Positions 10,053-29,484 of a stretch of DNA of 44,215 bases are shown here, one piece after another (position 1 is the first letter of the stretch; each line of letters begins with the position of its first letter). Source of the stretch: Candidatus Woesebacteria bacterium GW2011_GWC1_42_9 (GTDB lineage: Bacteria; Patescibacteriota; Microgenomatia; UBA8517); assembly GCA_000995185.1 (NCBI GenBank), contig LCET01000005.1:1-44215 (forward strand), written 5' to 3'. Position numbers and translations under genes: made by a program. The notes beneath the pieces were generated by a model. The model was given only the letters and a program-made list of their open reading frames with translations, ran no database searches and was not told where the DNA came from.

Positions 10053-10128
10053 TGGGGTGGCTGAGCGGGATCGAACCGCCAACCCCTTGCTCCACAGGCA
10101 AGTGCTCTACCATTGAGCTACAGCCACC
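10053..10128 (-). tRNA. tRNA-His(GUG)
   Basis: Full cloverleaf with an 8-bp acceptor (G-1:C73, the His identity feature), D-arm GCTC/GAGC, anticodon loop CTGTGGA and an encoded CCA. Its first 21 nt are duplicated exactly at 10160-10180, upstream in the direction of transcription. Confidence 0.96.
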
Positions 10129-10180
10129 ATCTCTAATTGCTCAATGGCCAAGGTTTCCTTACCATTGAGCTACAGCCACC
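10129..10180 (-). repeat. tRNA-His 5'-end copy plus hairpin element
   Basis: Read on the - strand: nt 10180-10160 repeat the first 21 nt of tRNA-His exactly and stop at the D-loop GGTA. Then come AAGG-AAA-CCTT (10160-10150), GG, and CCATTGAGC (10147-10139), which pairs with GCTCAATGG inside the copy (10170-10162). The result is a 9-bp stem, a 1x2 internal loop, a 4-bp stem and an AAA loop. Ten nt then lead to the true tRNA start. The element lies between the promoter and the tRNA, so it should be transcribed as a 5' leader. Confidence 0.85.
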
Positions 10181-10191
10181 AAAACCACCTT

Positions 10192-10200
10192 ATTATATCA
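10192..10200 (-). promoter_or_regulatory. Extended -10 promoter of tRNA-His
   Basis: TGATATAAT on the - strand (TGn extended -10). Its end lies 11 nt before the duplicated tRNA 5' end; no convincing -35. Confidence 0.65.
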
Positions 10201-10243
10201 AAAGAGCGTGCAATTTTTGTGTGTACATTGCACGCCCAAGCCA

Positions 10244-10678
10244 TCAATCATCGAGAAAGACACTGCCATACTTTACGCTGTTTTTCAGTAGAGTTTCTAT
10301 CGGCGTGGTAGCATCCTCCTTGCGTTCTTCGAAATACTCTTCTTCCTCTTGTTGAACAATGTTTGGATCTTGATTTTCATTCTTGGCCTTATCGTCTTCC
10401 CCAAGCCACTTTTCAAACGTAATAATAGGCAGGAGAATCAACAAAGCAAAGACAATCATTATCCAAAGCCACAGGTAAATCCAAATCGGAATGATTAACA
10501 GTGCTATCGGCCAGGATAGCCATGTGAACAGCAGAAGCGATGACATAACCCCAATGATAAATCCGATAAACCACATCATTTGTACCCCAGGGCTATCTTC
10601 CGAAAAGTGGATGTGCCACCACACAAAACTTTTTGCCTTCCGATTACAGAAACTTATAAAGCGCGAAATGTCTTCCAT
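10244..10678 (-). CDS. Small two-helix membrane protein with charged tail
   Basis: 144 aa, unrecognised. N-terminal amphipathic region, two long hydrophobic helices (about residues 34-58 and 60-85, tryptophan-rich LWLWIMIVFALLILLP), then an acidic/lysine-rich cytoplasmic tail with QQEEEEYFEERKED. Start fixed by AAGGAG five to ten bases upstream of the ATG and by an extended -10 at 10710. Confidence 0.75.
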   Translation of the reverse strand: MEDISRFISFCNRKAKSFVWWHIHFSEDSPGVQMMWFIGFIIGVMSSLLLFTWLSWPIALLIIPIWIYLWLWIMIVFALLILLPIITFEKWLGEDDKAKNENQDPNIVQQEEEEYFEERKEDATTPIETLLKNSVKYGSVFLDD

Positions 10679-10709
10679 TTCAATCTCCTTAACTCAAAGA
10701 CTTGCGGGC

Positions 10710-10718
10710 ATTATACCA
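10710..10718 (-). promoter_or_regulatory. Extended -10 promoter
   Basis: TGGTATAAT on the - strand, about 32 nt upstream of the ATG at 10678; the leader carries AAGGAG. Confidence 0.6.
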
Positions 10719-10727
10719 AATTTGAAG

Positions 10728-10997
10728 CTAGATTTCTTCTTCTGACTCAAGTTCCCGCGGGGCCTCTTCACTTTCTTCCTCGTCCGCGTAGTCATTTATT
10801 GGCTTTTCATTGTGCTCGAGCTCGTCTTTTTCTACCTCTTCTGCAATTGTAAACGGCTTATCGTCTTCCGGCTCGTTACCGATGGCGTCTTCTAAAATAT
10901 CAACTGTATCATCCTCTCCAGTCAACTCCGGCTCGTATACTTCGCTGTCTTGTTTTTTGAATTCCTCTTCTAAATCTTCTGGCTTTGGTCTGGCCAT
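10728..10997 (-). CDS. Highly acidic small protein
   Basis: 89 aa starting at ATG 10997 (MARPKPEDLEEEFKKQ). Over a third of residues are Asp or Glu, with no hydrophobic core, cysteines or membrane helix; probably disordered. An upstream in-frame extension exists but would run through the promoter. Function unknown; the DLEEEF start and repeated acidic blocks resemble no family I can name. Confidence 0.6.
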   Translation of the reverse strand: MARPKPEDLEEEFKKQDSEVYEPELTGEDDTVDILEDAIGNEPEDDKPFTIAEEVEKDELEHNEKPINDYADEEESEEAPRELESEEEI

Positions 10998-11005
10998 AAT
11001 TACTA

Positions 11006-11033
11006 ATAATACGGGAGTGAGAAAGTGATGCAA
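11006..11033 (-). promoter_or_regulatory. Promoter of the acidic protein gene
   Basis: TTGCAT, 16-nt spacer, TATTAT on the - strand; the -10 ends 8 nt before ATG 10997 with no SD between, so the message is probably leaderless. Confidence 0.6.
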
Positions 11034-11046
11034 GGGGCAATTTGAG

Positions 11047-12168
11047 CTAGAAGTAGAAGCTTCCTACGGCTTCATTGATCGATTTATATTGATCCCTTGC
11101 AATTAACTTTATAAGCCCTTCGTTAATCTCCCGGGGAAGCTGTGGGCCCTCATAAATTAATCCAGTAATTAATTGGACTAGAGATGCCCCACGACAAATT
11201 TTTTCATAAGCATCCTCTGCAGAAAACACCCCCCCGCAACCAATGATGATTAGTTTATCTCCGTAATGTCGGTAGGTTAGGGAAATCAGTTCGTTTGATC
11301 GTTTTCGGCAAGGTAACCCACTAAAATTTCCAGCTGTGGCTTTTGAAATCTCAACCTTATTAAAACTTTGGTTCTTGCGATTTTTTTCCAAATTACCAAT
11401 AATCACTCCGCAAACTTTATGTTTTACAATAACTTTTAGCATTTTTAAGAAGTCTTCATTTGATTCTGTGATCGGCATTTTGATAAAAATTGGCTTTTTG
11501 ATTCTTAATTTATCTAGACTTGTGAGCAAATTATTTAAATTTCTTGGGGGGTAAAAAGTGATATTTTTGGCGCCATGAATTAAGTTTGGGCAACTAATAT
11601 TAAGTTCATAATAACTGTGCCTAACCTTACTTTTCTCGAAACTAGCGAAACTAGCAAGAATATCATTGATGCTTTCTTTAATTGTTGTGAGTTTTGCGGA
11701 ATTGGTCCTCCCGATACTAATTCCAACAGGCGCATCAAATTTTAAGCCTCCTAATTTTTTAATAATTTCGGCCGCTCCTCGGCTTTTAAAGCCTTTGTTG
11801 ACCAAAAGAGACTTTGACTTGGGGAGCCTTCCCAAGCGGGGTGCTGGATTACCATCATAGGACATATTGGTCACAGTACCAACGGTCGAAAATCCAAAAC
11901 TAATCTTTGGCAAGATTTGAGTCAGGTTCCCATCATAATCAAATCCAGCGGCAAGCCCAATTGGATTTTCAAATTTTAAACCCTCAATTTTTTGAACCAG
12001 TTTTTTATCCTCATAAAAAAACAAGTTTTTGATCATGTTTCTGGTAAGCGCACTGGACCCTAAATATTTCCCAAAGCTAGTAAAATGGTTATGGATGCTT
12101 TCTGAATCCAGCAAAAATAGAGCAGGTTTGGCAGACTGATACGAATACCTCAAAATCTTGGAGATCAT
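11047..12168 (-). CDS. pyrD: Dihydroorotate dehydrogenase, class-2-like with a cysteine at the catalytic base position
   Basis: Oxidises dihydroorotate to orotate in pyrimidine synthesis. 373 aa. The N-terminal helical extension (residues 1-45) typical of membrane-associated, quinone-linked class 2 enzymes is followed by the FMN barrel: NPIGLAAGFDYDG (68-80), NPAPRLGRLPKS (107-118), NKGF (124-127) and ELNISCPN (188-195). Class 2 enzymes have Ser at the base position, class 1 have Cys; here it is Cys193. No other pyr gene or class 1B partner subunit is in the window. The ATG is 4 nt after the 3' end of tRNA-Gly and has no SD, so the message is probably released by tRNA processing. Confidence 0.92.
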   Translation of the reverse strand: MISKILRYSYQSAKPALFLLDSESIHNHFTSFGKYLGSSALTRNMIKNLFFYEDKKLVQKIEGLKFENPIGLAAGFDYDGNLTQILPKISFGFSTVGTVTNMSYDGNPAPRLGRLPKSKSLLVNKGFKSRGAAEIIKKLGGLKFDAPVGISIGRTNSAKLTTIKESINDILASFASFEKSKVRHSYYELNISCPNLIHGAKNITFYPPRNLNNLLTSLDKLRIKKPIFIKMPITESNEDFLKMLKVIVKHKVCGVIIGNLEKNRKNQSFNKVEISKATAGNFSGLPCRKRSNELISLTYRHYGDKLIIIGCGGVFSAEDAYEKICRGASLVQLITGLIYEGPQLPREINEGLIKLIARDQYKSINEAVGSFYF

Positions 12169-12172
12169 TATG

Positions 12173-12246
12173 AGCGGGTGATGGGTTTCGAACCCACGAC
12201 CTTCAGTTTGGAAAACTGACGCTCTAACCAGCTGAGCTACACCCGC
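12173..12246 (-). tRNA. tRNA-Gly(UCC)
   Basis: Acceptor GCGGGTG/CACCCGC with discriminator U73 (glycine feature), anticodon loop TTTCCAA. No CCA encoded. It begins on the base after the VKOR stop codon and ends 4 nt before the pyrD ATG. Confidence 0.95.
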
Positions 12247-12723
12247 CTACGACTTTCCGCTTAACTTCGTGTATTTTATAACAAGATAGCTAATAATAAC
12301 AAATATAAAAGTTGAACTAATGGCTGAAAGAAGGCAATATTGGCAGAATGTCTTGATCACAGAAACTTGTAAATATGTAAACCAAAGTGAAGCGAGAAAG
12401 CCAAAAAACGTGGAGACAAAAAGGGCCATGAGTATTGCCCTACTTTTATAATTAACAAAAAATCCCAAAAGAACTCCAATAAATAAATAGTAGTACACCC
12501 CGATTTGTGCTAGGGGAATGCCATAAAAACTCGCATATTTACTGCTCAGGACTTCGCCGCAACCGTTAGTAATAGTGCAGGGGATTTGTATCCCGCTTTG
12601 ATGTTCCGACAAAAGAACCGAAGAATCTAAAAACCCAACTACTAAAAATAGTAGAAGCCAAAGTTTTAAAACAAGCGGAAAATTATGGGGAATAGTCTTC
12701 GACAAGCTTTTTAAGTTGATCAT
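12247..12723 (-). CDS. Vitamin K epoxide reductase (VKOR) family protein
   Basis: 158 aa from ATG 12723; a longer start at 12750 is open. Integral membrane quinone-linked oxidoreductase that reoxidises a DsbA-like partner. Four or five hydrophobic helices; loop cysteines Cys49 and Cys55 (PCTITNGCGEVLSSKY with the family Ser) and the active-site pair Cys127/Cys130 (TFCQYC). It overlaps the 3' end of the dsbA-like gene by 41 nt, so the two are coupled. Its stop abuts tRNA-Gly with no gap. Confidence 0.93.
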   Translation of the reverse strand: MINLKSLSKTIPHNFPLVLKLWLLLFLVVGFLDSSVLLSEHQSGIQIPCTITNGCGEVLSSKYASFYGIPLAQIGVYYYLFIGVLLGFFVNYKSRAILMALFVSTFFGFLASLWFTYLQVSVIKTFCQYCLLSAISSTFIFVIISYLVIKYTKLSGKS

Positions 12724-13411
12724 AAGATTTTGGATTATCAATTTTTTCACCGTTTATAAAAAACGTCGGAGTAGAATTAACTCGGCTGGCAATACCACTG
12801 CGATAATCATTATTCACTCTATCCCGGGTTTCATCGGATTTCAAATCTGTATTAAATTGATCGATATTAAGGCCCAGATCTTGGGCATATTTAGTAAATT
12901 CCTTCTCGGGGTCAGGTAGATTTTCCCAAACTGACTGGTTTGCAAAAAGCAGATCATGCATCTCCCAAAACTTTCCCTGGCTTCCCGCCGCTTCGGCGGC
13001 ATAGCTTGCCACTTTCGCATTTTTGTGGATTTGTTCCAACGGGAAATGTCTGTATACCAAGGCAATTTCATCTCCTTTTTCATCTAACAATTTTTTCATG
13101 AACCCTGAATAATAAGCACATGCAGGACACTGAAAATCGCTATATTCCACGATAACAATGTCTGAATCAGGATTCCCTTTAACATGGTCTTCCGCGCTAA
13201 TTTCCGAAGAAAGCACCGAAGGGGACCCTTCCTTAGAAGTGGAAGTGACCGCTCCATATATCCCATACCCGATTACCCCCACAATGAGGACAATGGGGAT
13301 CCAAGTAGCCATCTTGCGAAAAGCCCGAGAATAATTCTGCCTCTTTTCCTCTTGGGCTTTTTTTTCTTTAGATAATTCTCGTTTTTCTCTTTTTGTTAAA
13401 GCTTCTTCCAT
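12683..13411 (-). CDS. DsbA-like thioredoxin-fold disulfide oxidase, membrane anchored
   Basis: 242 aa from ATG 13411; longer readings run into tRNA-Leu. Basic, charged N-terminal cytoplasmic segment (residues 1-35), a transmembrane helix (about 36-54), then a DSBA-type thioredoxin domain with Cys95-Pro-Ala-Cys98 (DFQCPACAYY), YRHFPLEQIH and the cis-Pro loop NSTPTFF. The partner VKOR follows directly. The ATG lies 4 nt after the last base of tRNA-Leu, leaving no room for an SD outside the tRNA. Confidence 0.94.
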   Translation of the reverse strand: MEEALTKREKRELSKEKKAQEEKRQNYSRAFRKMATWIPIVLIVGVIGYGIYGAVTSTSKEGSPSVLSSEISAEDHVKGNPDSDIVIVEYSDFQCPACAYYSGFMKKLLDEKGDEIALVYRHFPLEQIHKNAKVASYAAEAAGSQGKFWEMHDLLFANQSVWENLPDPEKEFTKYAQDLGLNIDQFNTDLKSDETRDRVNNDYRSGIASRVNSTPTFFINGEKIDNPKSYDQLKKLVEDYSP

Positions 13412-13415
13412 AAAG

Positions 13416-13502
13416 TGCCGGGGGTGGGACTCGAACCCACACGTCCGATAATCGGACACAGGATTTTAAGTCCTGCGCGTCTACCAGTTCCGCCACCTCG
13501 GC
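13416..13502 (-). tRNA. tRNA-Leu(UAA)
   Basis: Class II tRNA with a long variable arm; acceptor GCCGAGG, anticodon loop CTTAAAA, A73, no CCA. One base separates it from the CCA of tRNA-Arg upstream. Confidence 0.95.
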
Positions 13503-13503
13503 T

Positions 13504-13580
13504 TGGTGCGCCTGGGAGGACTCGAACCTCCAACCCTCTGTTCCGAAGACAGATGCTCTGATCCATTGAGCTACAGGCGC
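13504..13580 (-). tRNA. tRNA-Arg(UCG)
   Basis: Acceptor GCGCCTG/CAGGCGC, anticodon loop CTTCGGA, A73 and encoded CCA. First gene of the mixed tRNA/mRNA operon that ends with pyrD. Confidence 0.95.
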
Positions 13581-13586
13581 AAAAGC

Positions 13587-13616
13587 TTCAATATTATACC
13601 GAATTTCGGATATAAT
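13587..13616 (+). promoter_or_regulatory. Promoter of the DRG-type GTPase
   Basis: TTCAAT, 18-nt spacer, TATAAT; the -10 ends 6 nt before ATG 13623, implying a leaderless message. Confidence 0.6.
13593..13598 (-). promoter_or_regulatory. -10 box of the tRNA-Arg/Leu-dsbA-VKOR-tRNA-Gly-pyrD operon
   Basis: TATAAT on the - strand, 12 nt before tRNA-Arg. It overlaps the divergent promoter of the DRG GTPase gene. Confidence 0.6.
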
Positions 13617-13622
13617 TTCAGC

Positions 13623-14735
13623 ATGGTACAAATGACAAAGCAAGAAATAACCAGAATGCAGATAAAACGGATCGAAAAAGAAATCCGCGATACTCCTTAT
13701 CACAAGGGTACTGAGCACCATATTGGGAGACTTCGAGCAAAAATCTCGAAATTAAAAGACAACTTGGACGTTTCCACAAAAAAGGGAGGCGGGGGAGGGT
13801 ATGCTGTAAAAAAGCAAGGCGACGCAACCATTGTTCTTGTGGGTCCTCCTTCTGCAGGCAAATCCACTCTTATAAATCTTCTAACTAATGCGCACTCAAA
13901 AGTAGCCCCTTATTCATTTACCACAGTTACAGTCATACCAGGAATGATGAAATATAAAAACGCAAAGATCCAAATACTTGATGTCCCGGGACTTATAGAA
14001 GGCGCTGAGGAAGGTAAGGGCCGTGGCCGGGAAGTGATGTCGGTCGTGCGCGGGGCAGATCTTTTAATTCTCATAAGTGATATCAAAAGGCCAGAAGCTA
14101 TTGGGCGAATTAAAAAAGCTCTCGAGCGAAATGGGATCAGAATAAATAAATATCTCCCGGCAGTAAGGATACAAAAAAGGCTTTCCGGAGGGCTTATTAT
14201 CCACTCAAATATTCGGCAGGAACTGTCAAACTTAACGATCAAGGAAGTGGCCTCTCAGATGGGATTAAAAAATGCAGAAATTTCAATCAATGAAAAAATG
14301 GATTTGGACCGCTTGATCGATGCATTTTCCACAAACAGGATTTATATCCCGGCAATAAATGTACTCAATAAGTCGGACCAAGAAAAATTAAAAGATATGT
14401 CTCAAATAAGCAAAGCTGAGCATGCTGTGCCTGTAGAGGCTATAAAAATTAGTGCAACAAAAAACAAAGGCATTAAAAAACTCAAAGAGATAATTTGGGA
14501 AAAATTAAATTTTGTCCAAATTTATCTCGTTAGGATTAACGAAGAACCCAATACTAATGACCCCATTATTTCTAGATCGGGAACTACCCTCAGACAAATA
14601 AGTGAAAAAATAGGGTCAAGTTTTTCAGAAAGAAGGTCTCGGGCAAAAATCTGGGGACCTGGGGCAAAATTCCCAGGACAAGAAGTATCTTTATCGCTCA
14701 TGGTAAAAGAGGGCATGATGGTTAGATTTATTTAA
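13623..14735 (+). CDS. DRG-type (developmentally regulated GTP-binding protein) GTPase with TGS domain
   Basis: 370 aa. Obg-superfamily GTPase of the DRG branch, ribosome-associated in archaea and eukaryotes. N-terminal basic helical hairpin with the DRG-like IEKEIRDTPYHKGTEHHIG (residues 17-35), a glycine run (55-59), G1 GPPSAGKST (74-82), G2 SFTT (98-101), G3 DVPGLIEGA (120-128), G4 NKSD (249-252), SAT (277-279), and a C-terminal TGS domain (about 297-370: VRINEEPNTND...GPGAKFPGQEVSL). This is the full DRG order and length, not the bacterial Obg layout with its glycine-rich Obg fold. A -10 box sits 6 nt before the ATG. Horizontal origin from archaea is possible. Confidence 0.9.
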   Translation: MVQMTKQEITRMQIKRIEKEIRDTPYHKGTEHHIGRLRAKISKLKDNLDVSTKKGGGGGYAVKKQGDATIVLVGPPSAGKSTLINLLTNAHSKVAPYSFTTVTVIPGMMKYKNAKIQILDVPGLIEGAEEGKGRGREVMSVVRGADLLILISDIKRPEAIGRIKKALERNGIRINKYLPAVRIQKRLSGGLIIHSNIRQELSNLTIKEVASQMGLKNAEISINEKMDLDRLIDAFSTNRIYIPAINVLNKSDQEKLKDMSQISKAEHAVPVEAIKISATKNKGIKKLKEIIWEKLNFVQIYLVRINEEPNTNDPIISRSGTTLRQISEKIGSSFSERRSRAKIWGPGAKFPGQEVSLSLMVKEGMMVRFI

Positions 14736-14750
14736 ATAAGCCTCATTTTT

Positions 14751-14759
14751 TGATATAAT
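14751..14759 (+). promoter_or_regulatory. Extended -10 promoter of the Leu/Leu/Val tRNA cluster
   Basis: TGATATAAT, the same extended -10 as at tRNA-His. Its end is 27 nt before the tRNA-Leu 5'-end copy. Confidence 0.65.
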
Positions 14760-14786
14760 TCAAGCTCTAGTCAGTTTGATTTATTA

Positions 14787-14837
14787 GCCTTCGTGGCGGA
14801 ACTGGTAAGCAAAGCTTGGCCAGTTCGAGATACATAA
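14787..14837 (+). repeat. tRNA-Leu(CAG) 5'-end copy plus hairpin element
   Basis: 14787-14807 repeat the first 21 nt of the downstream tRNA-Leu exactly and stop at the D-loop GGTA. Then AAGC-AAA-GCTT (14807-14817), GG, and CCAGTTC (14820-14826) pairing with GAACTGG (14799-14805) in the copy. Eleven nt lead to the true tRNA start. Same geometry as the tRNA-His element: 21-nt copy, AAA loop, T versus GG internal loop, offset 51 nt against 52. Confidence 0.85.
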
Positions 14838-14924
14838 GCCTTCGTGGCGGAACTGGTAGACGCGCAGCGTTCAGGACGCTGTGTCGCTTGCGACGTAGAG
14901 GTTCGAGTCCTCTCGAAGGCACCA
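14838..14924 (+). tRNA. tRNA-Leu(CAG)
   Basis: Class II tRNA; acceptor GCCTTCG/CGAAGGC, anticodon loop TTCAGGA, long variable arm (GTCGC/GCGAC), A73 and encoded CCA. Confidence 0.95.
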
Positions 14925-14966
14925 AGCTATTGCAAAGCCGACCTGTCGGCCGTAGCTTTAGCGTAG
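14925..14966 (+). repeat. REP-like double palindrome between two tRNA-Leu genes
   Basis: Inner hairpin GCCGAC-CT-GTCGGC (14937-14950) nested in an outer pair AAGCTA/TAGCTT. Its antisense translation contains AYAKATAD, a string I remember from repeat-derived ORFs in CPR and other genomes. It is probably an extragenic palindromic repeat. Confidence 0.5.
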
Positions 14967-15050
14967 GCCGAGGTGTTGAAACTGGTAGACAAGCACGCTT
15001 GAGGTGCGTGTGGGGTAACACCCGTGGAGGTTCGAGTCCTCTCCTCGGCA
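14967..15050 (+). tRNA. tRNA-Leu(GAG)
   Basis: Class II tRNA; acceptor GCCGAGG/CCTCGGC, anticodon loop TTGAGGT, A73, no CCA. Confidence 0.94.
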
Positions 15051-15057
15051 CAAAAAA

Positions 15058-15130
15058 GGTCGCATAGCTCAGTTGGTAGAGCATTCGGTTTACATCCGAA
15101 GGGTCCAAGGTTCGAGTCCTTGTGCGACCA
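15058..15130 (+). tRNA. tRNA-Val(UAC)
   Basis: Acceptor GGTCGCA/TGCGACC, D-arm GCTC/GAGC, anticodon loop TTTACAT, A73, no CCA. Confidence 0.95.
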
Positions 15131-15151
15131 CAACACTGAAGAAATTCACAG

Positions 15152-15188
15152 AAAAATAAAATCCCGCCGTTTGAGATCAAAGGCGGGA
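15152..15188 (-). terminator. Rho-independent terminator of the secreted-protein gene
   Basis: 7-bp stem TCCCGCC/GGCGGGA (15162-15168 with 15182-15188); on the - strand it is followed by TTTTATTTTT. Confidence 0.8.
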
Positions 15189-15227
15189 CTCCTCCACTAA
15201 ATTAAATCGGACAAAATATATCACAAG

Positions 15228-16154
15228 CTATTGGTCTGGTTCTCGGAACTCGATGGCGTCATCCACCCCGTACCAACCCCAATTGAGCGGGCGCACACCG
15301 TCTGGATAAACGCCATATGCCTCAATCAACGGCAAAAGCGCTTCGGCGTTTATATTCTCGCGGCATCCGAGAATTAATATTCCGCGGGCTTGCCCATAGA
15401 CCATCACCCCGTCCTCACCTTGGACATCCACATAAACCGGGGGAGTATAAATCACTTGACGATCGGCGTCCTCCACCGTAAATCCACCGATTTTCCAGAA
15501 GATGTTAAACATCCCCTCGGTTAAAATCGTGTGCGGCTGAACCACGGCGCCCACCGGCGTGCAAACCGCAGGCACCGGCGCGATCGCGCAGGGGACATAT
15601 TCACCAACAATGTCGCCCATTGCGGTTTTGTCGGTTTGCCAATCAGCTTCAGTTACTTCGTTGTCGGTCCAAGTCCCATTGCCGCAGGTTACAAACGTCC
15701 AGCCCCAATCAGTGATCGTAAAGCCGTAAATAGTCCCCACATCAAAAAAGTTGTGGAAATATTTGGCCTCATAGCTGGCATAAGAACCCACCGTGAGATC
15801 TTCCTCGCCTGCTGGCACGTTGATATTCAACGTCCCGCAGATCGTCCCACTGATCCCGCCGGAAACAGTACCAGGAATTCCGGCTGCAACCGTGTCGCCA
15901 GGCTCACCGCCAGGGGACCCTCCGCCAATGGTTTCAAAAGTCCCTGCATCCACCCGGATGTAGTTGTAGCAATCCGGCCCTGTTTGGGTAAGCGTTAACA
16001 AGCTATGGAAATGATCCACGGCCCAAATGCCCTGCATCCCGTTGTCCATCGTTTTAAAGCTATACCCCACGACGACCGAGAGGCCCGACACCGACGACAC
16101 TAAGAACGCTGACATAATCAGCACCAATATAAAGAGCACAGCTACCTTTTTCAC
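15228..16154 (-). CDS. GC-rich secreted protein of unknown function
   Basis: 308 aa, GTG start fixed by AAGGAG 6-11 nt upstream. A signal peptide (MKKVAVLFILVLIMSAFLVSSVSG) is followed by a glycine/proline-rich stretch (GGGSPGGEPGDTVAAGIPG) and several aromatic segments (HNFFDVGTIYGF, DWGWTFVTCGNG, NWGWYGVDD). About seven scattered cysteines. No second membrane helix or sorting motif. Composition is unlike its neighbours: parts exceed 65% GC while the surroundings are near 40%. It is a self-contained unit with its own spaced promoter, strong SD and terminator, which fits an abundant surface or secreted protein or a recent acquisition. Confidence 0.8.
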   Translation of the reverse strand: MKKVAVLFILVLIMSAFLVSSVSGLSVVVGYSFKTMDNGMQGIWAVDHFHSLLTLTQTGPDCYNYIRVDAGTFETIGGGSPGGEPGDTVAAGIPGTVSGGISGTICGTLNINVPAGEEDLTVGSYASYEAKYFHNFFDVGTIYGFTITDWGWTFVTCGNGTWTDNEVTEADWQTDKTAMGDIVGEYVPCAIAPVPAVCTPVGAVVQPHTILTEGMFNIFWKIGGFTVEDADRQVIYTPPVYVDVQGEDGVMVYGQARGILILGCRENINAEALLPLIEAYGVYPDGVRPLNWGWYGVDDAIEFREPDQ

Positions 16155-16168
16155 TTCACACTCCTTTG

Positions 16169-16197
16169 GTTATAGGTATACGAGAAGATAGCCACAA
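16169..16197 (-). promoter_or_regulatory. Promoter of the secreted-protein gene
   Basis: TTGTGG, 17-nt spacer, TATAAC on the - strand, upstream of an AAGGAG. Confidence 0.6.
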
Positions 16198-16234
16198 ATA
16201 GCACTGTATTATAGCACGCCGCTCACAAATATAG

Positions 16235-16240
16235 TAAAAT
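16235..16240 (+). promoter_or_regulatory. Putative -10 of the Phe/Gly/Arg tRNA cluster
   Basis: TAAAAT 11 nt before tRNA-Phe; no recognisable -35. Confidence 0.4.
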
Positions 16241-16251
16241 ACACAGCATAA

Positions 16252-16324
16252 GCTGAGGTAGCCAAGTCGGTCACGGCGGGCGCCTGAAGAGCGTCAGATA
16301 TAGGTTCGATTCCTATCCTCAGCA
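16252..16324 (+). tRNA. tRNA-Phe(GAA)
   Basis: Acceptor GCTGAGG/CCTCAGC, anticodon loop CTGAAGA, T-arm ATAGG/CCTAT, A73, no CCA. The D-arm GCC/GGC is short. Confidence 0.92.
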
Positions 16325-16341
16325 CCTCGCTCATTTCATTT

Positions 16342-16413
16342 GCGGCGGTAGTTCAGTGGTAGAATGTCTCGTTGCCAACGAGAAGGTCGGCGGTTCAAAT
16401 CCGCTCCGCCGCT
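16342..16413 (+). tRNA. tRNA-Gly(GCC)
   Basis: Acceptor GCGGCGG/CCGCCGC, anticodon loop TTGCCAA, U73, no CCA. Confidence 0.95.
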
Positions 16414-16437
16414 CATTTTTATTCGCTTAAATCATAA

Positions 16438-16511
16438 GCCCTAGTAGCTCAACTGGATAGAGCAGGAGTGTTCTAAACTCAAGGTTGGGGGTTCAAGTCC
16501 CTCCTAGGGCA
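16438..16511 (+). tRNA. tRNA-Arg(UCU)
   Basis: Acceptor GCCCTAG/CTAGGGC, anticodon loop GTTCTAA, A73, no CCA. Its last 33 nt are antisense to the C-terminal codons of the M50 protease gene. Confidence 0.95.
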
Positions 16512-17720
16512 CAGCGTTAGCCGCGGTAAATATTTTTTCAAAACCTCATATATTAATAATGTAACTGCCAAAATCTGTATAGAAATGATGATGAGCCCGT
16601 CCAAAAATTCTGTAGAGTTGGACTCGATATACCCCAAATAAAGACTCCCGATGCCGCTTGTGGCCAACTTTAAGGTAATTGGTAAATGATATAAGCTGTA
16701 CCTCACTATCGCAAACATAGTTCCTGAAAAGAAAAAAAACGTATATATATTCACAAAAAAAATTTCTCTCCTGGTCAAATAATGGTCAAAGGGCTGTCTC
16801 GTAATCAGGGAGTAAATCTTTTTTATTGCATAAGTATAAAGATTCTCTACGCCTACCAATTCTTTAATTACAAAATAAAAATCAGTACGGGTGAAAAACA
16901 GAAATTGCCACAAAAATGTTAACCATTGAATTAAGATAAATTGGTGAATTATCTCAAGATTTTGGTTTGGAAAAAGAAAAATAATTAGATAAAAAATAAA
17001 TACCAGAATAAGATCAAAAACCATCCCTGAAAGATAAATTACCAAACGCCAAAACTTGGGAACAGAAAAAATATCAGGATTGTATGTTTCAAAAACTAGA
17101 AAATTCAAACGATAGGAAAGTCTAATCTTTGCTCTGATCCCCTGTGAGGCGGCAGTCCAGTAATGCACCAACTCATGCATAATCCCGAAAATCCAGCTAA
17201 AGATGAAAAAAGTCAATAAAGAAATACTTAATCTTTCATGCCAAAAAAAATCAGCGTATTTAGGAAGCCCATAACGAGAAAAAATGATCATCATTAATCC
17301 CAAACAAGCCAAAAAAACATAAATAGTCAGTAATAATTTGTGAAAAAAAAATTTTAACCAAAGTGGTTTGGTGCCCCGAGGTAATAATCGATTTTCATCG
17401 CGGCCAAATGAAATATGGTCTATTTTTTTAATAAGCCCATGCTTGGTCATCAATAAAATCATAATTTTCACTTTATGGATTGCCCTTTCTTCGGGAATGG
17501 AACGTTTTGCCCTTTGTGCCATTTTACGGGCAATTGCTTCTATTCTTTGAGGTTTTTCTAATATATCCACTATATGTCTCCAAAAAGGCTTAGTTAGTAA
17601 ATACTTTCCCGTATCTTTACTGCCCAGATAAATTTTTCCGGAGCCTGCCTTCTGCCAAACCAAGCCTTCGGCATATATCATGCTTTTATTTTTTATTTTT
17701 ATGTCCTTACCCATTGACAT
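16479..17720 (-). CDS. Polytopic M50-type peptide zinc metalloprotease with N-terminal PqqD-like domain
   Basis: 413 aa from ATG 17720; ATG 17714 is an alternative. N-terminal about 100 residues resemble a PqqD-like peptide-binding domain (GKYLLTKPFWRHIVDILEKPQ...LLMTKHGLIKKID). Then six or more membrane helices with the zinc motif HELVH (182-186) and a likely third ligand Asp280 in RTDFYFVIKEL, as in putative peptide zinc metalloproteases found near modified-peptide genes. Expected role: intramembrane cleavage or handling of a peptide. It is divergent from a 49-aa CxxC peptide gene across 49 bp. The last codons (CPRRDLNPQP) are antisense to tRNA-Arg(UCU), and no earlier stop exists. Confidence 0.82.
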   Translation of the reverse strand: MSMGKDIKIKNKSMIYAEGLVWQKAGSGKIYLGSKDTGKYLLTKPFWRHIVDILEKPQRIEAIARKMAQRAKRSIPEERAIHKVKIMILLMTKHGLIKKIDHISFGRDENRLLPRGTKPLWLKFFFHKLLLTIYVFLACLGLMMIIFSRYGLPKYADFFWHERLSISLLTFFIFSWIFGIMHELVHYWTAASQGIRAKIRLSYRLNFLVFETYNPDIFSVPKFWRLVIYLSGMVFDLILVFIFYLIIFLFPNQNLEIIHQFILIQWLTFLWQFLFFTRTDFYFVIKELVGVENLYTYAIKKIYSLITRQPFDHYLTRREIFFVNIYTFFFFSGTMFAIVRYSLYHLPITLKLATSGIGSLYLGYIESNSTEFLDGLIIISIQILAVTLLIYEVLKKYLPRLTLCPRRDLNPQP

Positions 17721-17741
17721 ATAGTAACCATTTTTGTAATT

Positions 17742-17747
17742 ATTATA
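17742..17747 (-). promoter_or_regulatory. -10 box of the M50 protease gene
   Basis: TATAAT on the - strand, 21 nt before ATG 17720; no SD is visible. On the + strand a TTGACA (17714-17719) lies inside the start of this gene and may serve the divergent peptide gene. Confidence 0.5.
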
Positions 17748-17769
17748 TAGGATATGGAGGTGACGCTAA

Positions 17770-17919
17770 ATGGATAAACAAAAAGAAAAAAAACATCCAA
17801 ATGAAATATCTAGAAAAGTGTCTGCTAAAGTTAAATGCCCGCACTGTGGAAAGGAAATAGAAGCAGAAGTAGAGATCCCAGAACCACCAGAAACACCAAA
17901 GGTTACTTGGATCACCTAA
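17770..17919 (+). CDS. 49-aa peptide with a CPHCG knuckle
   Basis: Lys-rich N-terminal half (MDKQKEKKHPNEISRKVSAK), one zinc-ribbon-like CPHCG (residues 23-27), then an acidic, proline-rich tail (EIPEPPETPKVTWIT). Start fixed by GGAGGTGA (17756-17763), one of the best SDs in the window. The TAA overlaps the next ATG by one base (TAATG), so the 424-aa protein is coupled to it. It could be half of a zinc ribbon, a small accessory subunit or, given the M50/PqqD-like neighbour, a peptide substrate; this is inference. Confidence 0.7.
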   Translation: MDKQKEKKHPNEISRKVSAKVKCPHCGKEIEAEVEIPEPPETPKVTWIT

Positions 17920-19193
17920 TGCCTGAGAGAAAAGATTTTTATAATCCAGAATATACACTAGCCTCATTAAGAGGTAGTCTTTCGGGTGATGATTCAAAAA
18001 GACTCGCGGGAGTTGTTACGGATATCCAAAGCAATTTGTTGCTTGCAGTCAGTACCCCTGAACTTGGCCAATTCCAAGAACGATTAATTGAAGGTGTTTA
18101 TAGAGAATTCGGCGGATATATCGACAAAGCTTCCGACGGAGAACTGCAGAAGTATCTTCGACCAGACTTCGAAACCAGCTCAGCACTTTCTACCTTGTAT
18201 TCCATTACCAATACCCATATATTTAATGTCTGGATGAGGAGAGAAGACCCTTCTGAATTAATTGAGGAAAGCATCCACAGGTATGAACGACTCCAAAACC
18301 CAACAGAAATAACTAAACTCGCCTATAATCGCAACCTCACAGAACTAAACGAAGCAATTCAGCTTGACCCAGAAGCGGCCTGTGCCAGGCTTGCTGATGT
18401 TGTCGCTGAGACAAGCCGTGCGGTCACAGCTATCGATGTTCTGAGGGCCTCTACTGGAGCCCTTCACCACGCCACCAAAGAGACCCATTATCGCGATATT
18501 AATTTTATTCCTTCTGACTTTCGAAACGCCTATGGTCAAACTCAACTCGATATGGCCGCCCTACTAATTTGCTTTCCCAGGCAATATAACCAAGCCAAAG
18601 TTTATGTGAATTCTGGCAGGTTGTCACTTGCCGATGCCAGATCAATCCTTTTGGCCGTACCACCCGGAGAAAGACACTCTTTAGTTTTCTTGCGTCGAGA
18701 GGCTACTAATGACAGCAACCTGGCTTATGCCTCATTTATAGAAGCCGACATAGAGCTTTCAACTCCTACCAGAAACGGTGAGTATTTTGCTTATTTTACT
18801 GGAGAAGCCATAACTCCTCTTCGCCGATTCCTCGCTACCGTACACAGAGATCCTAGGCCCAATAATCTGTCTAACACTGAAGATAAAGTTAGACTACCAG
18901 TTTACTTTAAACCAGAAATACTTCTCAGATTTGCCTACGGCGCGGCACTTTTTTACCAAGCTGAAAAAGTATTCCCTACATGGTCTGCAAAAATGGAAAG
19001 AATCCAACACGATTTTTTTTCACTTATGGAAGAAGAAGTATTCCCTGGACAACTCAGAAGGCTGCCTAAAGATAGAGAAATAGCCCATTTAGCCAACCGA
19101 CTTATCAGCCTCGCTAAGCAAAAGGCCGCTGACCCGTCAGATAATGCTGAAATCACTAAATATACTTACCTTTTCAGAAAATTCAGTATTTAA
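17919..19193 (+). CDS. 424-aa unknown soluble protein
   Basis: Not recognised. No signal peptide or membrane segment. Mostly helical by appearance, with motifs such as NNLSNTEDKVRLPVYFKPEILLR reading like a conserved core and several Arg-Asp pairs, but no catalytic signature I can name. The start is the ATG overlapping the stop of the 49-aa peptide gene; an upstream extension to 17835 is open but would overlap that gene in another frame. It is the second gene of a two-gene unit facing away from the M50 protease. Confidence 0.72.
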   Translation: MPERKDFYNPEYTLASLRGSLSGDDSKRLAGVVTDIQSNLLLAVSTPELGQFQERLIEGVYREFGGYIDKASDGELQKYLRPDFETSSALSTLYSITNTHIFNVWMRREDPSELIEESIHRYERLQNPTEITKLAYNRNLTELNEAIQLDPEAACARLADVVAETSRAVTAIDVLRASTGALHHATKETHYRDINFIPSDFRNAYGQTQLDMAALLICFPRQYNQAKVYVNSGRLSLADARSILLAVPPGERHSLVFLRREATNDSNLAYASFIEADIELSTPTRNGEYFAYFTGEAITPLRRFLATVHRDPRPNNLSNTEDKVRLPVYFKPEILLRFAYGAALFYQAEKVFPTWSAKMERIQHDFFSLMEEEVFPGQLRRLPKDREIAHLANRLISLAKQKAADPSDNAEITKYTYLFRKFSI

Positions 19194-19215
19194 ATTTTTA
19201 AAAATCTCCGAAATT

Positions 19216-19224
19216 TGATAGAAT
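19216..19224 (+). promoter_or_regulatory. Extended -10 promoter of tRNA-Pro/Lys
   Basis: TGATAGAAT, 16 nt before tRNA-Pro. Confidence 0.55.
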
Positions 19225-19240
19225 AGGCGCAACTTCTTCG

Positions 19241-19313
19241 CGGGGTGTAGCTCAGTTGGTAGAGTGCACGCTTTGGGAGCGTGAGGTCCCCGGTTCGAGC
19301 CCGGGCACCCCGA
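19241..19313 (+). tRNA. tRNA-Pro(UGG)
   Basis: Acceptor CGGGGTG/CACCCCG, anticodon loop TTTGGGA, A73, no CCA. Confidence 0.95.
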
Positions 19314-19320
19314 CACAAAC

Positions 19321-19395
19321 GGGTCGCTAGCTCAACGGTAGAGCAACCGGCTCTTAACCGGTAGGTTACAGGTTCGAGCCCTGTGCGACCCACCA
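19321..19395 (+). tRNA. tRNA-Lys(CUU)
   Basis: Acceptor GGGTCGC/GCGACCC, anticodon loop CTCTTAA, A73 and encoded CCA. Probably co-transcribed with the lysozyme-like gene that follows. Confidence 0.94.
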
Positions 19396-19451
19396 ATTTA
19401 TGCCTGTTTGACTTATTAACTCGATTTGTGGCATTCTTGTCTAAGCCCAAG

Positions 19452-20078
19452 ATGGAACCTGATTTGTTTGTCAAAAATTTACTCTTGATTGCTGTCTTTT
19501 TGATACTAACCCCGCTAGCGCTGGGGACAAGTTTGTTTACTTTGATTGCGATCTCCACAAATGAGGAAGTTGTTAGCCGCACTGAGGTGCTTTCATATAA
19601 AGACACCAACCTTATTACCGCCCCTATGCCCGGGGTTAATGTCTATGCATCTCTCCCAAGTGAGTCCTACGCCATTTCAGGCAACGTATATGGAAAGGAT
19701 GCCCGTATTGAAATAATCAGGCAATATCTTGAATACTACCGATCTCCGCTTGAGCCATACTCGACTCAACTTGTCGCCATGGCAGATAAGTATGGACTTG
19801 ATTTCAAGTTGACCACAGCAATTGCTCAACAAGAGTCAAATTTGTGCAAAAAAATCCCCGAAAACACGTACAACTGCTGGGGCTGGGGGATACATAGTCA
19901 AGGTACTTTGGGATTTGAAGACTACTCTCACGCCATAGAAACAGTTTCCCGTGGACTTCGCAAGGAATATTTGGACAAGGGCTTTCTCAGCATTGAAGAT
20001 ATTATGGGTAAATATACCCCCCTCTCAAATGGCTCTTGGGCACAAGGGGTGAGCACTTTTATGGCAGACATGGAGTAG
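19452..20078 (+). CDS. Membrane-anchored lysozyme/transglycosylase-like protein
   Basis: 208 aa from ATG 19452; in-frame GTG 19428 would add 8 residues, and a longer reading runs into tRNA-Lys. One N-terminal helix (about 9-34), a linker, then a lysozyme-fold-like domain: VAMADKYGLDFKLTTAIAQQESNLC (108-132) with probable catalytic Glu128, NCWGWGIHSQG (141-151) and AIETVSRGLRKEY (161-173). Expected to act on peptidoglycan outside the membrane. No promoter or SD is evident between tRNA-Lys and the start, so it probably rides on the tRNA transcript. Confidence 0.75.
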   Translation: MEPDLFVKNLLLIAVFLILTPLALGTSLFTLIAISTNEEVVSRTEVLSYKDTNLITAPMPGVNVYASLPSESYAISGNVYGKDARIEIIRQYLEYYRSPLEPYSTQLVAMADKYGLDFKLTTAIAQQESNLCKKIPENTYNCWGWGIHSQGTLGFEDYSHAIETVSRGLRKEYLDKGFLSIEDIMGKYTPLSNGSWAQGVSTFMADME

Positions 20079-20079
20079 A

Positions 20080-20835
20080 ATGTCTGCGGCATATGATAAC
20101 TACAATTATCAAGCATATTGGAAAGGCCGAGATTATGAGCATGAAAGCGAGGTATTGGCCATCAATAGTTTTATAAAACATCTCCCCAACAATTTGAACG
20201 TCATTGATATTGGTTGCGGGTTTGGACGTCTCGCACCGCTTTATTTAAACAAATCCAAGCGAGCGCTCTTGACCGATTCGTCTAAGAAGTGTCTCTCTGA
20301 AGCAAAGGTGCGCCTCTCCAAAGACCCTAGAGTTAGCTTTTTGTATTCTAAAGCTGAAAATGTAGTCAAAAAAACCGGCAGTCAAAAGTTTGATTTAGCA
20401 CTCTTTGTGAGAGTGATGCACCATATAGAAGACCCCAAAATAATCCTAAAAGAAGTAAATAGGCTTTTGAAAAAGGATGGTTTTTTTATCCTAGAATACG
20501 CCAACAAACAACATATTAAGGCGACTTTTATGAATCTTAAAAGAGGAAATTTCATTTTTCCATTTGAGATTTTCCCAGAGGATAAGCGCACTTCATCGAA
20601 TCAAAATGAAAAATGCATCCCATTTTTGAATTTTCACCCAGCTTACATCAAGGATCTTCTAACCGAGAGCGGCTTTGAAATTATTGAAGTGCGATCTGTT
20701 TCCAACGCAAGAAGCCGGAAATTAAAAAAGATTTTCCCTCATAATTTTATGCTTCTAATAGAACGGTTTCTTCAAAAGCCATTAGGTAAAATCCATTTTG
20801 GACCTTCTATTTTCGTACTTGCGAAGAAGAAGTAA
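20080..20835 (+). CDS. Class I SAM-dependent methyltransferase
   Basis: 251 aa. SAM motif I VIDIGCGFGRL (41-51), acidic residue after beta 2 (LLTDSS), motif DLALFVRVMHHIEDPKIILKEVNRLLKKDGFFILEY typical of the methyltransferase 11/25 group. The substrate is unknown. It begins 1 nt after the lysozyme-like gene stops. Confidence 0.9.
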   Translation: MSAAYDNYNYQAYWKGRDYEHESEVLAINSFIKHLPNNLNVIDIGCGFGRLAPLYLNKSKRALLTDSSKKCLSEAKVRLSKDPRVSFLYSKAENVVKKTGSQKFDLALFVRVMHHIEDPKIILKEVNRLLKKDGFFILEYANKQHIKATFMNLKRGNFIFPFEIFPEDKRTSSNQNEKCIPFLNFHPAYIKDLLTESGFEIIEVRSVSNARSRKLKKIFPHNFMLLIERFLQKPLGKIHFGPSIFVLAKKK

Positions 20836-20867
20836 ACCAGCCTAACAGGACGAATACGTCCTATAGC

Positions 20868-20896
20868 TTGACTTAATTATGGGACTATGATATAGT
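20868..20896 (+). promoter_or_regulatory. Strong promoter of a candidate small RNA
   Basis: TTGACT, 17-nt spacer, TATAGT with an upstream TG (TGATATAGT). Among the closest to consensus in the window, yet no ORF follows. Confidence 0.7.
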
Positions 20897-20902
20897 CCCC
20901 AT

Positions 20903-20985
20903 TACGTTTCAAGGCAACCCTGATTTTTTCAGGGGAGCGTTGGAATTCCCCAAGACCCCGCTTTACCGCGGGGTTCTTGATTTGT
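20903..20985 (+). ncRNA. Candidate structured small RNA
   Basis: About 80 nt after a strong promoter with no start codon. First hairpin CCCTGA-TTTTT-TCAGGG inside CAAC/GTTG; an alternative pairing GGGGA/TCCCC would break it. It ends in a GC-rich hairpin CCCCGC-TTTACC-GCGGGG extended by AAG/CTT (20952-20978), a probable terminator although the U-tract is weak (TTCTTGATTTG). It does not match SRP RNA, tmRNA, RNase P RNA or a riboswitch that I can recognise. Confidence 0.5.
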
Positions 20986-20999
20986 GAGAGTCTAACTAA

Positions 21000-21029
21000 A
21001 AGACAATATACTATCTCCGATGTTATAAT
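21000..21029 (+). promoter_or_regulatory. Promoter of tRNA-Leu(UAG)
   Basis: AAGACA, 18-nt spacer, TATAAT, 21 nt before the tRNA. Confidence 0.55.
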
Positions 21030-21050
21030 TCCAGTAGAAATTTCTTATAT

Positions 21051-21135
21051 GCCGAGGTGGCGGAACTGGTAGACGCGCAGGATTTAGGATCCTGTGTCTT
21101 TAAAAGACGTGGAGGTTCGAGTCCTCTCCCCGGCA
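21051..21135 (+). tRNA. tRNA-Leu(UAG)
   Basis: Class II tRNA; acceptor GCCGAGG/CCCCGGC, anticodon loop TTTAGGA, variable arm GTCTT/AAGAC, A73, no CCA. Confidence 0.95.
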
Positions 21136-21149
21136 CACACTATTTTTGC

Positions 21150-21155
21150 TACAAT
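21150..21155 (+). promoter_or_regulatory. -10 box of the eight-cysteine gene
   Basis: TACAAT, 6 nt before ATG 21162; no SD between. Confidence 0.5.
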
Positions 21156-21161
21156 AAGTAA

Positions 21162-21509
21162 ATGCTTATTCGCAGGATCGTCAATAGCTTCCTAATACTT
21201 TTTGCTCTATTTACCTTAGCTCTAATTGGGTATTATTTAACTAAGTCCGTGCTTAATATGCAGACACAAGAATTTCCAACCCGAGTCACTTTTGATAAAA
21301 AGCCATACCGCGAAGCTTATGGGTCGCTTAAATATGCGCAAGGGGAGTGTGACTTGGATAACGAATGCGAACCTTCGGGATGTTCAGAAGAGGTTTGCTC
21401 CTCAGATCCAAATATAAACACTGCTTGCGAGATCAAAAAAGATTTTCCCGATAACCAGAGTTATCGATGCGGATGCTTTGATAGTCGCTGTGCTTGGATC
21501 GAAAAATAG
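21162..21509 (+). CDS. Membrane-anchored eight-cysteine-cluster protein
   Basis: 115 aa. N-terminal helix (residues 4-26), then an extracytoplasmic domain with exactly eight cysteines at 63, 69, 74, 79, 89, 103, 105 and 110 (GECDLDNEC, SGCSEEVC, NTACE, RCGCFDSRCAW). This spacing resembles the small family annotated as eight-cysteine-cluster proteins; the role is unknown. Four disulfides are plausible and would depend on the DsbA/VKOR pair. A -10 box 6 nt before the ATG suggests a leaderless message. Confidence 0.75.
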   Translation: MLIRRIVNSFLILFALFTLALIGYYLTKSVLNMQTQEFPTRVTFDKKPYREAYGSLKYAQGECDLDNECEPSGCSEEVCSSDPNINTACEIKKDFPDNQSYRCGCFDSRCAWIEK

Positions 21510-21511
21510 AC

Positions 21512-22066
21512 ATGGAAAAAAATACCTTGCATATCCATCCGAACAAATTTGCAAATAACTGGCACATTATTTTTATTTTTTTACCCTCAATTATTTTTGT
21601 GTTGCTAATCGCGCTTGCTTTTAAGAACCTCTCTATCAAAAACTCTAAAATGTCTCGGGGGTCTGCTGTATCGGCAAGTGACAAACTTGTCCTTGATCTT
21701 AAGAAAAAACCCGTCAGAGTAGGCGAGACAGGCTTAATTGCCTACATTGCTGATAGCGATGAATCACGAAAGCTGGGACTTTCAAATCGTAGTAGTTTGG
21801 CAAGCGATGAGGCTATGCTTTTTGTTTTCGACAAGCCCGATGTAAACCCGCCATTTTGGATGAAGGACATGCACTTTCCCATTGATATTATTTGGATTAA
21901 TGATGGGAAAGTAATATTCATAAACGAAAATGTAGAACCGGCAGAAACCGAAAGTGATTTGAAATTATACTTACCTCCGGAGCCGATCGACTATGTTTTA
22001 GAGGTCAATGCCGGATTTTCGGCAGCGAACAAACTGGAGCTTGGAAATCCCTTCATAATTTTATAA
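21512..22066 (+). CDS. DUF192 family protein, membrane anchored
   Basis: 184 aa from ATG 21512, 2 nt after the previous stop; an upstream TTG at 21494 would overlap that gene. One N-terminal helix (about 18-38) and an outside DUF192 domain: LGLSNRSSLASDEAMLFVFDKP, PPFWMKDMHFPIDIIWIN, VLEVNAGFSAANKLELGN. The family is secreted or anchored and of unknown function. Confidence 0.9.
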   Translation: MEKNTLHIHPNKFANNWHIIFIFLPSIIFVLLIALAFKNLSIKNSKMSRGSAVSASDKLVLDLKKKPVRVGETGLIAYIADSDESRKLGLSNRSSLASDEAMLFVFDKPDVNPPFWMKDMHFPIDIIWINDGKVIFINENVEPAETESDLKLYLPPEPIDYVLEVNAGFSAANKLELGNPFIIL

Positions 22067-22103
22067 ACTTCGCCATCGGCCATTTGTTTAGGAGTATGCA
22101 CAT

Positions 22104-22268
22104 ATGAAGCACTGTCCTCATAGAAAATTTTGCGCCTGGTGCAATAAGTCAATCTGCCCGAAGCGTGGCTTTCGCTCAATCGTAAACCTTGTGTACAAAA
22201 ACAAAGTTATAATTGACGCGAGAACTCGATATCGCAGGCGATTATCCTGGTCGCGCAAAGTTCATTAA
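22104..22268 (+). CDS. 54-aa basic protein with four cysteines
   Basis: Starts at an ATG with AGGAG 9 nt upstream. Cysteines at 4, 10, 13 and 18 (KHCPHRKFCAWCNKSICPKRG) could bind one zinc; the rest is very basic (ARTRYRRRLSWSRKVH), pointing to nucleic acid binding. No family recognised. It ends tail to tail with the polymerase gene, overlapping it by 4 nt. Confidence 0.65.
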   Translation: MKHCPHRKFCAWCNKSICPKRGFRSIVNLVYKNKVIIDARTRYRRRLSWSRKVH

Positions 22269-23530: not shown

Positions 23531-23774
23531 CAGAAATTTCTTCTAAAGTCCAGTGTAAATTTTCAGTGTTCAGAACCAGTTTAAAAAAAAGCGTAGGGGT
23601 GGCGACAGAGAAAACATGGAACAAGGTGCGCCCCATCCGATAAGTGTGGTGGAGTCCAAGCCTGGTAATTGGATAAAGGCGGTTATTCCAAATAATGCAT
23701 TTAGGGGAAACTTTATGCTTTACACTATCAAAATTAAAAGAGACAGAAATGGGAGAGTTAATTTTTTGGATCAC
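23514..23774 (-). CDS. Small protein co-expressed with the Y-family polymerase
   Basis: 86 aa from GTG 23774, chosen because the longer frame runs through the promoter (TTGACT...TATAAA ends 6 nt before this GTG). Beta-rich with KCIIWNNRLYPITRLGLHHTYR and LFHVFSVATPTLFFKLVLN and a final LHWTLEEI. Small genes of this type next to dinB resemble the DUF6504-like group, but I cannot confirm the match. Possibly a polymerase accessory protein. Confidence 0.65.
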   Translation of the reverse strand: MIQKINSPISVSFNFDSVKHKVSPKCIIWNNRLYPITRLGLHHTYRMGRTLFHVFSVATPTLFFKLVLNTENLHWTLEEISDGLPN

Positions 23775-23780
23775 AAGTAG

Positions 23781-23810
23781 TTTATATACCCGAATAAAAC
23801 CCAAAGTCAA
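23781..23810 (-). promoter_or_regulatory. Promoter of the 86-aa gene and dinB
   Basis: TTGACT, 18-nt spacer, TATAAA on the - strand, then 6 nt to GTG 23774. Confidence 0.65.
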
Positions 23811-23824
23811 GAGGGGAATCTCAA

Positions 23825-24523: not shown

Positions 24524-24529
24524 AAGTCG

Positions 24530-24540
24530 ATTATATTATA
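24530..24540. promoter_or_regulatory. Shared divergent -10 region
   Basis: An AT palindrome gives TATAAT on the - strand (24530-24535; 6 nt to the AlkD-like GTG) and TATTAT on the + strand (24534-24539; 5 nt to ATG 24545). The two leaderless promoters overlap and cannot both be occupied. Confidence 0.6.
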
Positions 24541-24544
24541 AGAA

Positions 24545-24777: not shown

Positions 24778-24795
24778 CCTATAAATTCGTGCGCG

Positions 24796-25011: not shown

Positions 25012-25045
25012 TATTTCTACTCCTAGCGCTAGTTTTCGATGAAAC

Positions 25046-29482: not shown

Positions 29483-29484
29483 TT

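Follow-up and report, generated by a model that had tools for sequence, protein, structure and literature searches.

Leaders of tRNA-His and tRNA-Leu in a Woesebacteria genome as probable insertions of a very small mobile double hairpin

Our findings indicate that the leaders preceding tRNA-His and tRNA-Leu(CAG) in the window, the 44,215-nucleotide stretch of Candidatus Woesebacteria bacterium GW2011_GWC1_42_9 analyzed here, very probably arose when a very small palindromic element, mobile but non-autonomous, entered the D-loop of each tRNA gene at GG^TA. The core of these leaders, TAAGCAAAGCTTGG, forms hairpin A of a 27-34 nt double-hairpin repeat found at scattered sites, and this repeat appears to have struck the tRNA genes and reading frames of this lineage repeatedly. 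A mobile double hairpin of about 30 nt is tiny in comparison to known bacterial palindromic repeats, and here it resides in a small-genome CPR lineage. No published description of such an element in Woesebacteria, Patescibacteria or CPR was found in a search whose range lay outside most subscription journals, and as far as could be found this mobile hairpin of roughly 30 bases is previously undescribed; its behavior is that of known palindromic elements.

The tRNA-His gene lies on the minus strand, and its upstream region reads, in strand order, as TATAAT, the copy TGGTGGCTGTAGCTCAATGGTA, AAGG-AAA-CCTT-GG, CCATTGAGC, AATTAGAGA and the complete tRNA. The TATAAT sequence is the -10 box of the gene (10192-10197) and sits 12 nt ahead of the point in the copy corresponding to where the aligned tRNA begins. 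The upstream copy (10160-10181), which we read as the original 5′ end of the gene, forms an exact 22-nt direct repeat with positions 10108-10129 at a spacing of 52 nt, such that the first-pass annotation was right to call the copy exact but placed its length one nucleotide short, at 21 nt. Hairpin A, TAAGG-AAA-CCTTGG (10148-10161; covariance model 21.1 bits, E 0.0044), shares its TA with the copy and is followed by the arm CCATTGAGC (10139-10147), which is the reverse complement, over 9 contiguous pairs, of GCTCAATGG, a sequence that the copy and the tRNA both contain. This bears out the earlier description of AAGG-AAA-CCTT followed by a complement to the D-arm flank. A filler, AATTAGAGA (10130-10138), joins the arm to the duplicated 5′ end, completing a leader feature of approximately 10130-10181, and beyond it lies an intact tRNA-His (GTG) with a rebuilt 5′ end (10053-10127; ARAGORN, Rfam RF00005 at 68.8 bits).

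A repeat search of the whole window revealed the same layout at tRNA-Leu(CAG), giving two equal cases, and this is the second locus to which the earlier annotation alluded. On the plus strand, the copy of the tRNA-Leu 5′ end, AGCCTTCGTGGCGGAACTGGTA (14786-14807), runs into hairpin A, TAAGC-AAA-GCTTGG (14806-14819; covariance model 34.3 bits, E 5.7e-6), a 7-nt arm CCAGTTC that is the reverse complement of GAACTGG (14820-14826), and a filler, GAGATACATAA (14827-14837), whose final base also begins the duplicated stretch; the intact tRNA-Leu (CAG) identified by ARAGORN follows at 14838-14924. The inner stem is AAGC/GCTT at this locus and AAGG/CCTT at tRNA-His, a swapped pair that constitutes a compensatory change. 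A third, partial or variant case is found in the same genome outside the window, at tRNA-Ser(GCT) (L286), where the order is copy GGAGGTGTCGCATA, unit TAAGCATAGCTTGTCCGACGTTATTGG and then the tRNA. The region of the window that spans 10053-29655 is also a dense tRNA cluster: its roughly 20 kb hold 15 tRNA genes, on both strands and with protein genes between them.

Chance or an assembly duplication, the latter a concern raised in the first-pass annotation, has a negligible probability of explaining these loci. The genomes of the relatives are metagenome assemblies, which would lend this explanation some weight, but exact repeats of 22 nt occur at two loci that share a core, whereas about 1.5e-8 such repeats are expected by chance per 500 random nt of the same composition, and approximately 120 further copies of the core exist in other genomes that were assembled independently. 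An exact search with TAAGNANANCTTGGCC matched about 120 places in 31 of the 57 genomes of the order, compared to 1 for the reversed-pattern control, and a search for GGTAAGNAAANCTTGGCC that tolerated a single mismatch matched 23 of the 50 genomes of the family, with the backwards control almost empty. Across 374 genomes of the class the core is nearly confined to the source genome's own family and one additional genome (G034). Named records with exact matches identify the family as Candidatus Woesebacteria/Microgenomates. In a 257 Gb collection, no Rickettsia record was present among 86 exact matches, and the lone exact matches outside Microgenomates were at about the level expected by chance. 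A collection of viral contigs gave 13 exact matches, roughly the chance number given an estimate of its size. Rfam matches above the gathering score comprised only tRNA, RNase P and tmRNA, and the element itself matched no family. These counts are lower bounds, since a variant with a longer core, TAAGGATAACCTTGG, escapes fixed-length patterns. That variant, one base longer in the core, was observed upstream of a tRNA-Pro in the same layout (L086, on contig DYGT01000008.1 of genome G004).

The anatomy of the element was defined from 129 cores in 112 sites, of which 44 fall in open frames, 26 in tRNA genes and 1 at rnpB; copies also lie in intergenic DNA. Hairpin A, TAAGC-AAA-GCTTGG, comes first and is followed by hairpin B, which has the form CC-stem-loop-stem-GG. 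Hairpin A opens with TA and is near-constant, its closing pair being C-G in 119 of the 129 cores, G-C in 3, A-T in 2, and T-A and T-G in 1 each. The sequence that comes after hairpin B is TAA or TAG in 84 of 99 cases. The sequence of hairpin B is variable and its pairing is kept, with 97% and 99% of cells paired in the 27- and 29-nt classes, respectively, and double changes at 3-4 pairs; none of 500 shuffles scored as high in paired cells, doubly changed cells or covariation score. Because the 27- and 29-nt sets had been picked with a stem filter, pairing was retested without stem selection on all elements ending in GGTA at a fixed length. The inner pairs were intact in 55 of 57 and 74 of 76 instances in this set, against shuffle means of 43 and 53 and maxima of 48 and 65. 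Pairing in hairpin B is maintained through compensating double changes. Tandem A+B arrays also exist, such as the five cores of L056. Insertion chiefly into the loops of pre-existing inverted repeats was considered and does not hold as a general rule, as flank stems of at least 8 occur at just 2 of the 25 noncoding sites, where about 0.3 are expected and the shuffle maximum is 4. At four loci (L190, L191, L184 and L198) the element does sit in the loop of a longer inverted repeat, with up to 18 paired flank bases, and these are possibly terminators.

At 26 of the sites the tRNA lies downstream of the core and a copy of its 5′ end lies upstream, and these represent 11 isotypes. They make up about a quarter of all element sites, and tRNA genes account for an estimated well under 1% of such a genome. 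The tRNA is broken at a TA in 24 of the 26, nearly always at GG^TA of the D-loop. At the tRNA-His gene of a relative (G008) the break instead falls at position 8 (G^TA) and the copy measures 11-12 nt, yet the start of the copy still approximates the tRNA 5′ end. The placement of promoters gives direction to these events: at 15 of the 26 sites a -10 box is located no more than 30 nt ahead of the copy, mostly 7-14 nt away, whereas one precedes the real tRNA at only 2 of the 26, at distances of 0 and 2; among unoccupied tRNAs, 48 of 107 have a -10 box. The first copy is therefore best read as the old 5′ end, with the functional tRNA displaced downstream, and because the -10 box precedes the copy the element would have entered the D-loop and not the front of the tRNA. 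The earlier suggestion that the leader is the scar of a small element thus finds good support in the dispersed, inserted family, but its placement of the insertion at the 5′ front of the tRNA does not stand.

The first-pass annotation favored a switch-like leader, in which the arm could pair with the decoy or with the true D-arm and could affect folding, access of RNase P or the amount of tRNA-His. Put as a rival explanation, this would be a selected cis-regulatory or processing leader that controls these steps through the alternating arm. The leader and the tRNA together do fold more stably than shuffled sequences (z -3.5), both copies in the window (His and Leu) are unmutated, and in 26 folded cases the model predicts competition between the copied and the real acceptor strand (mean 0.71 for the copy vs 0.25), such that an effect on folding is possible. 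Against this, the core is found at tRNA-His only here and in G008 among the genes of about two dozen relatives, the nearest of which belong to other genera, and the same core occurs at 11 isotypes, in ORFs and at rnpB. Shuffling of the arm in the 26 cases left the predicted acceptor pairing unchanged (Wilcoxon p = 0.63, also 0.57), and at one site (L189) the arm continues to match the tRNA even though the copy has decayed. The lack of conservation at orthologous tRNAs, in combination with the null folding test, leads us to reject the regulatory switch, which we regard as very improbable. The same arm shuffles, without effect in the 26 cases, dispose of the idea that the arm shields the real tRNA from competition by the decoy. 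From the folding predictions, a conserved regulatory role is unlikely and a cost to tRNA folding is possible; the structure is most likely a leftover leader without selected function that may mildly harm the folding of the tRNA. Annotators should note that, in these genomes, a 5′ tRNA fragment preceding a tRNA gene is probably what an insertion left behind and not a regulatory leader.

In the tRNA genes, the arm that comes after hairpin A is the reverse complement of the bases immediately preceding the break. The match covers 5-10 nt at most sites, and at L037, L040, L055, L189, L205, L211 and L225 it extends, as read from the sequences, over almost the whole copy, though with decay. Because each arm matches a different tRNA, the arm must have been made at the target, and fold-back copying during insertion is suggested as the best account of its target specificity. 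In the sequence of events that we propose, the 27-34 nt double hairpin would have entered the tRNA gene at a TA, the 3′ side of hairpin A would have snapped back onto the target strand so that 5-19 nt were copied, and synthesis would then have jumped to a position 0-10 nt before the tRNA start. Either this event itself or selection among such events would have duplicated the tRNA 5′ end downstream. What remained would be an intact tRNA whose lengthened 5′ leader RNase P could remove, and selection would have kept only those events that rebuilt the tRNA. A broader formulation, that of a mobile hairpin which repairs its own target by coupling insertion to fold-back copying and re-synthesis of the flank, and which thereby lands in essential structured RNA genes and leaves the gene intact, is a possibility that we advance tentatively and with considerable doubt. 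Such target-repairing movement may proceed via an RNA or single-stranded DNA intermediate. The target-matched arm represents a footprint from which the chemistry of insertion, usually unknown for elements of this type, could be read.

The same layout might also arise without copying coupled to insertion, if the element entered one of two tandem identical tRNA genes and the first subsequently lost its 3′ portion. At three sites (L250, L230 and L038) a whole A+B unit occupies the D-loop of an incomplete tRNA copy, and that copy continues beyond the insertion as far as the anticodon arm. Insertion into a partial tandem tRNA copy fits these sites better, which suggests that it also happens. This explanation is likewise favored by the tRNA-Ser(GCT) of the source genome, which holds a whole A+B unit, and by a 25-nt exact 5′ copy upstream of a tRNA-Leu(TAA) (L024, in G031) from which the core is absent. 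As a general explanation, however, we consider it rather unlikely: in most cases the copy ends precisely where the element was inserted and the arm that comes next is complementary to that very tRNA, a feature that deletion does not create, and the duplication ends 0-5 nt from the tRNA start in nearly all cases, which would need repeated coincidence.

Returning to the fold-back model, the single case at rnpB (L226, assigned by an Rfam match) has a duplicated GGAGGCTAG and an arm CTAGCC that look as they do at tRNAs. Duplications, of approximately 11-30 nt, were seen only at tRNA genes and rnpB. Most insertions elsewhere have no duplication and no flank-matching arm, and the fold-back step may thus be peculiar to essential RNA genes or reflect selection. 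No 3′-end counterpart of the tRNA case was seen.

Insertions in protein genes mostly keep the reading frame. The 44 open-frame sites (of 112) lie in frames of at least 130 codons, and one likely chance match was left out of the frame analysis, which covered 43. Insertion length is a multiple of 3 in 33 of 36 measured open-frame cases (mostly 27 or 30); for insertions in neither genes nor tRNAs the figure is 5 of 22. At 32 of the 43 sites the reading frame used encodes (D/N/Y)KQSLA...GK. The host genes look conserved; those with a Pfam identity are TopA and peptide deformylase, and others look, from their sequences, like RsmH, ValRS, TrxB, MurG and RplJ. In the topA gene of G066, the zinc-ribbon reads CPDC-KQSLAGDAGKN-GDVIV, with nine extra residues that are absent in 16 aligned orthologues of the family; as judged from the alignment, this is a clean in-frame insertion of exactly one 27-nt unit. 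The TA that opens hairpin A and the TAA or TAG that follows hairpin B are compatible with a TA target duplication, with topA, at the protein level, as the sole empty-site comparison. KQSLA peptides in the proteins of Woesebacteria are probably inserted, and annotators should treat them with caution. At the start of an rsmH-like gene, the element occurs in three genera (L213, L224 and L238, in G061, G030 and G066) at an identical position before YHESVM, and the hairpin B sequences of the three differ. This could reflect either a single old insertion whose hairpin has since turned over or a site that the element prefers.

Mobilization by a RAYT/Y1 transposase, in the manner of REP sequences, would be consistent with a short hairpin that is often in tandem and with the prevalence of Y1_Tnp proteins in the order, where they occur in 28 of 57 genomes, many at 215-270 aa. 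The association is weak, however, as Y1_Tnp is found in 18 of the 31 genomes that carry the element and in 10 of the 26 that do not. Four genomes (G002, G008, G011 and G020, with G008 and G011 being single-contig assemblies) carry 5-8 copies of the element and no Y1_Tnp, and the source genome of the window has none either, making this proposal distinctly unlikely. Compared with REP/RAYT systems, the element shows no tight link to Y1_Tnp, and it lies in-frame in genes where REP sequences are mainly extragenic. Reverse transcriptase is rare, being present in 8 of the 57 genomes of the order, and is absent from the genome of the window. No mobilizing enzyme was found through the presence of Y1_Tnp or reverse transcriptase across the 57 genomes, and we set aside mobilization by a same-genome Y1 transposase or reverse transcriptase for want of a clear link to element presence. 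The element also differs from a classical MITE, with a left end of TAAGC.., a right end of ..GG with a variable stem, and no shared terminal inverted repeat.

Comparison with known palindromic repeats places the element closest in habit to systems of other lineages. Rickettsia palindromic elements, according to the available text of PMC2229807, are 105-146 bp long with terminal inverted repeats of about 12 bp and, as summarized there, also occur in tmRNA and RNase P RNA. The element described here resembles them as a short palindromic repeat of one lineage that is found in-frame in protein genes and also in RNA genes, but differs from what that text describes in being 27-34 nt, in having two hairpins and no terminal inverted repeat, and in belonging to an unrelated phylum; tRNA genes with a rebuilt 5′ end are not reported for Rickettsia palindromic elements in the same text. 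The Yersinia repeat YPAL/RU-2, a palindrome of about 168 bp, makes target duplications of 3-26 bp at or beside dyad symmetry (available text of PMC2229807). Its variable-length duplications find a parallel in those reported here, yet YPAL/RU-2 as described there is far longer, is without TA at its ends and comes from a different lineage. Length and lineage therefore exclude both Rickettsia palindromic elements and YPAL. An RNA intermediate has been proposed for mitochondrial double-hairpin elements, whose mobilizer is unknown. They share two adjacent small hairpins, tandem copies, presence in RNA genes, protein genes and spacers, and retention in the transcript, as far as the available portions of PMC2800124 and PMC4618339 extend. 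Those elements are organellar, and the likeness drawn here is one of form; duplication of a tRNA 5′ end and a target-matched arm are not described for them in those portions.

Hairpins of other kinds were also observed at tRNA genes. Just upstream of a tRNA-His in G018 (L009), a different hairpin, GGAAAACAGTAGTTTTCG, lies between a 5′ copy of about 10 nt and its near-complement; the layout is the same and the core unrelated, and other hairpin families may use tRNA genes likewise. In two genomes (L007 and L009) the palindrome GTCGCGTTGCGAC directly precedes the tRNA-His copy, and this looks like another repeat family.
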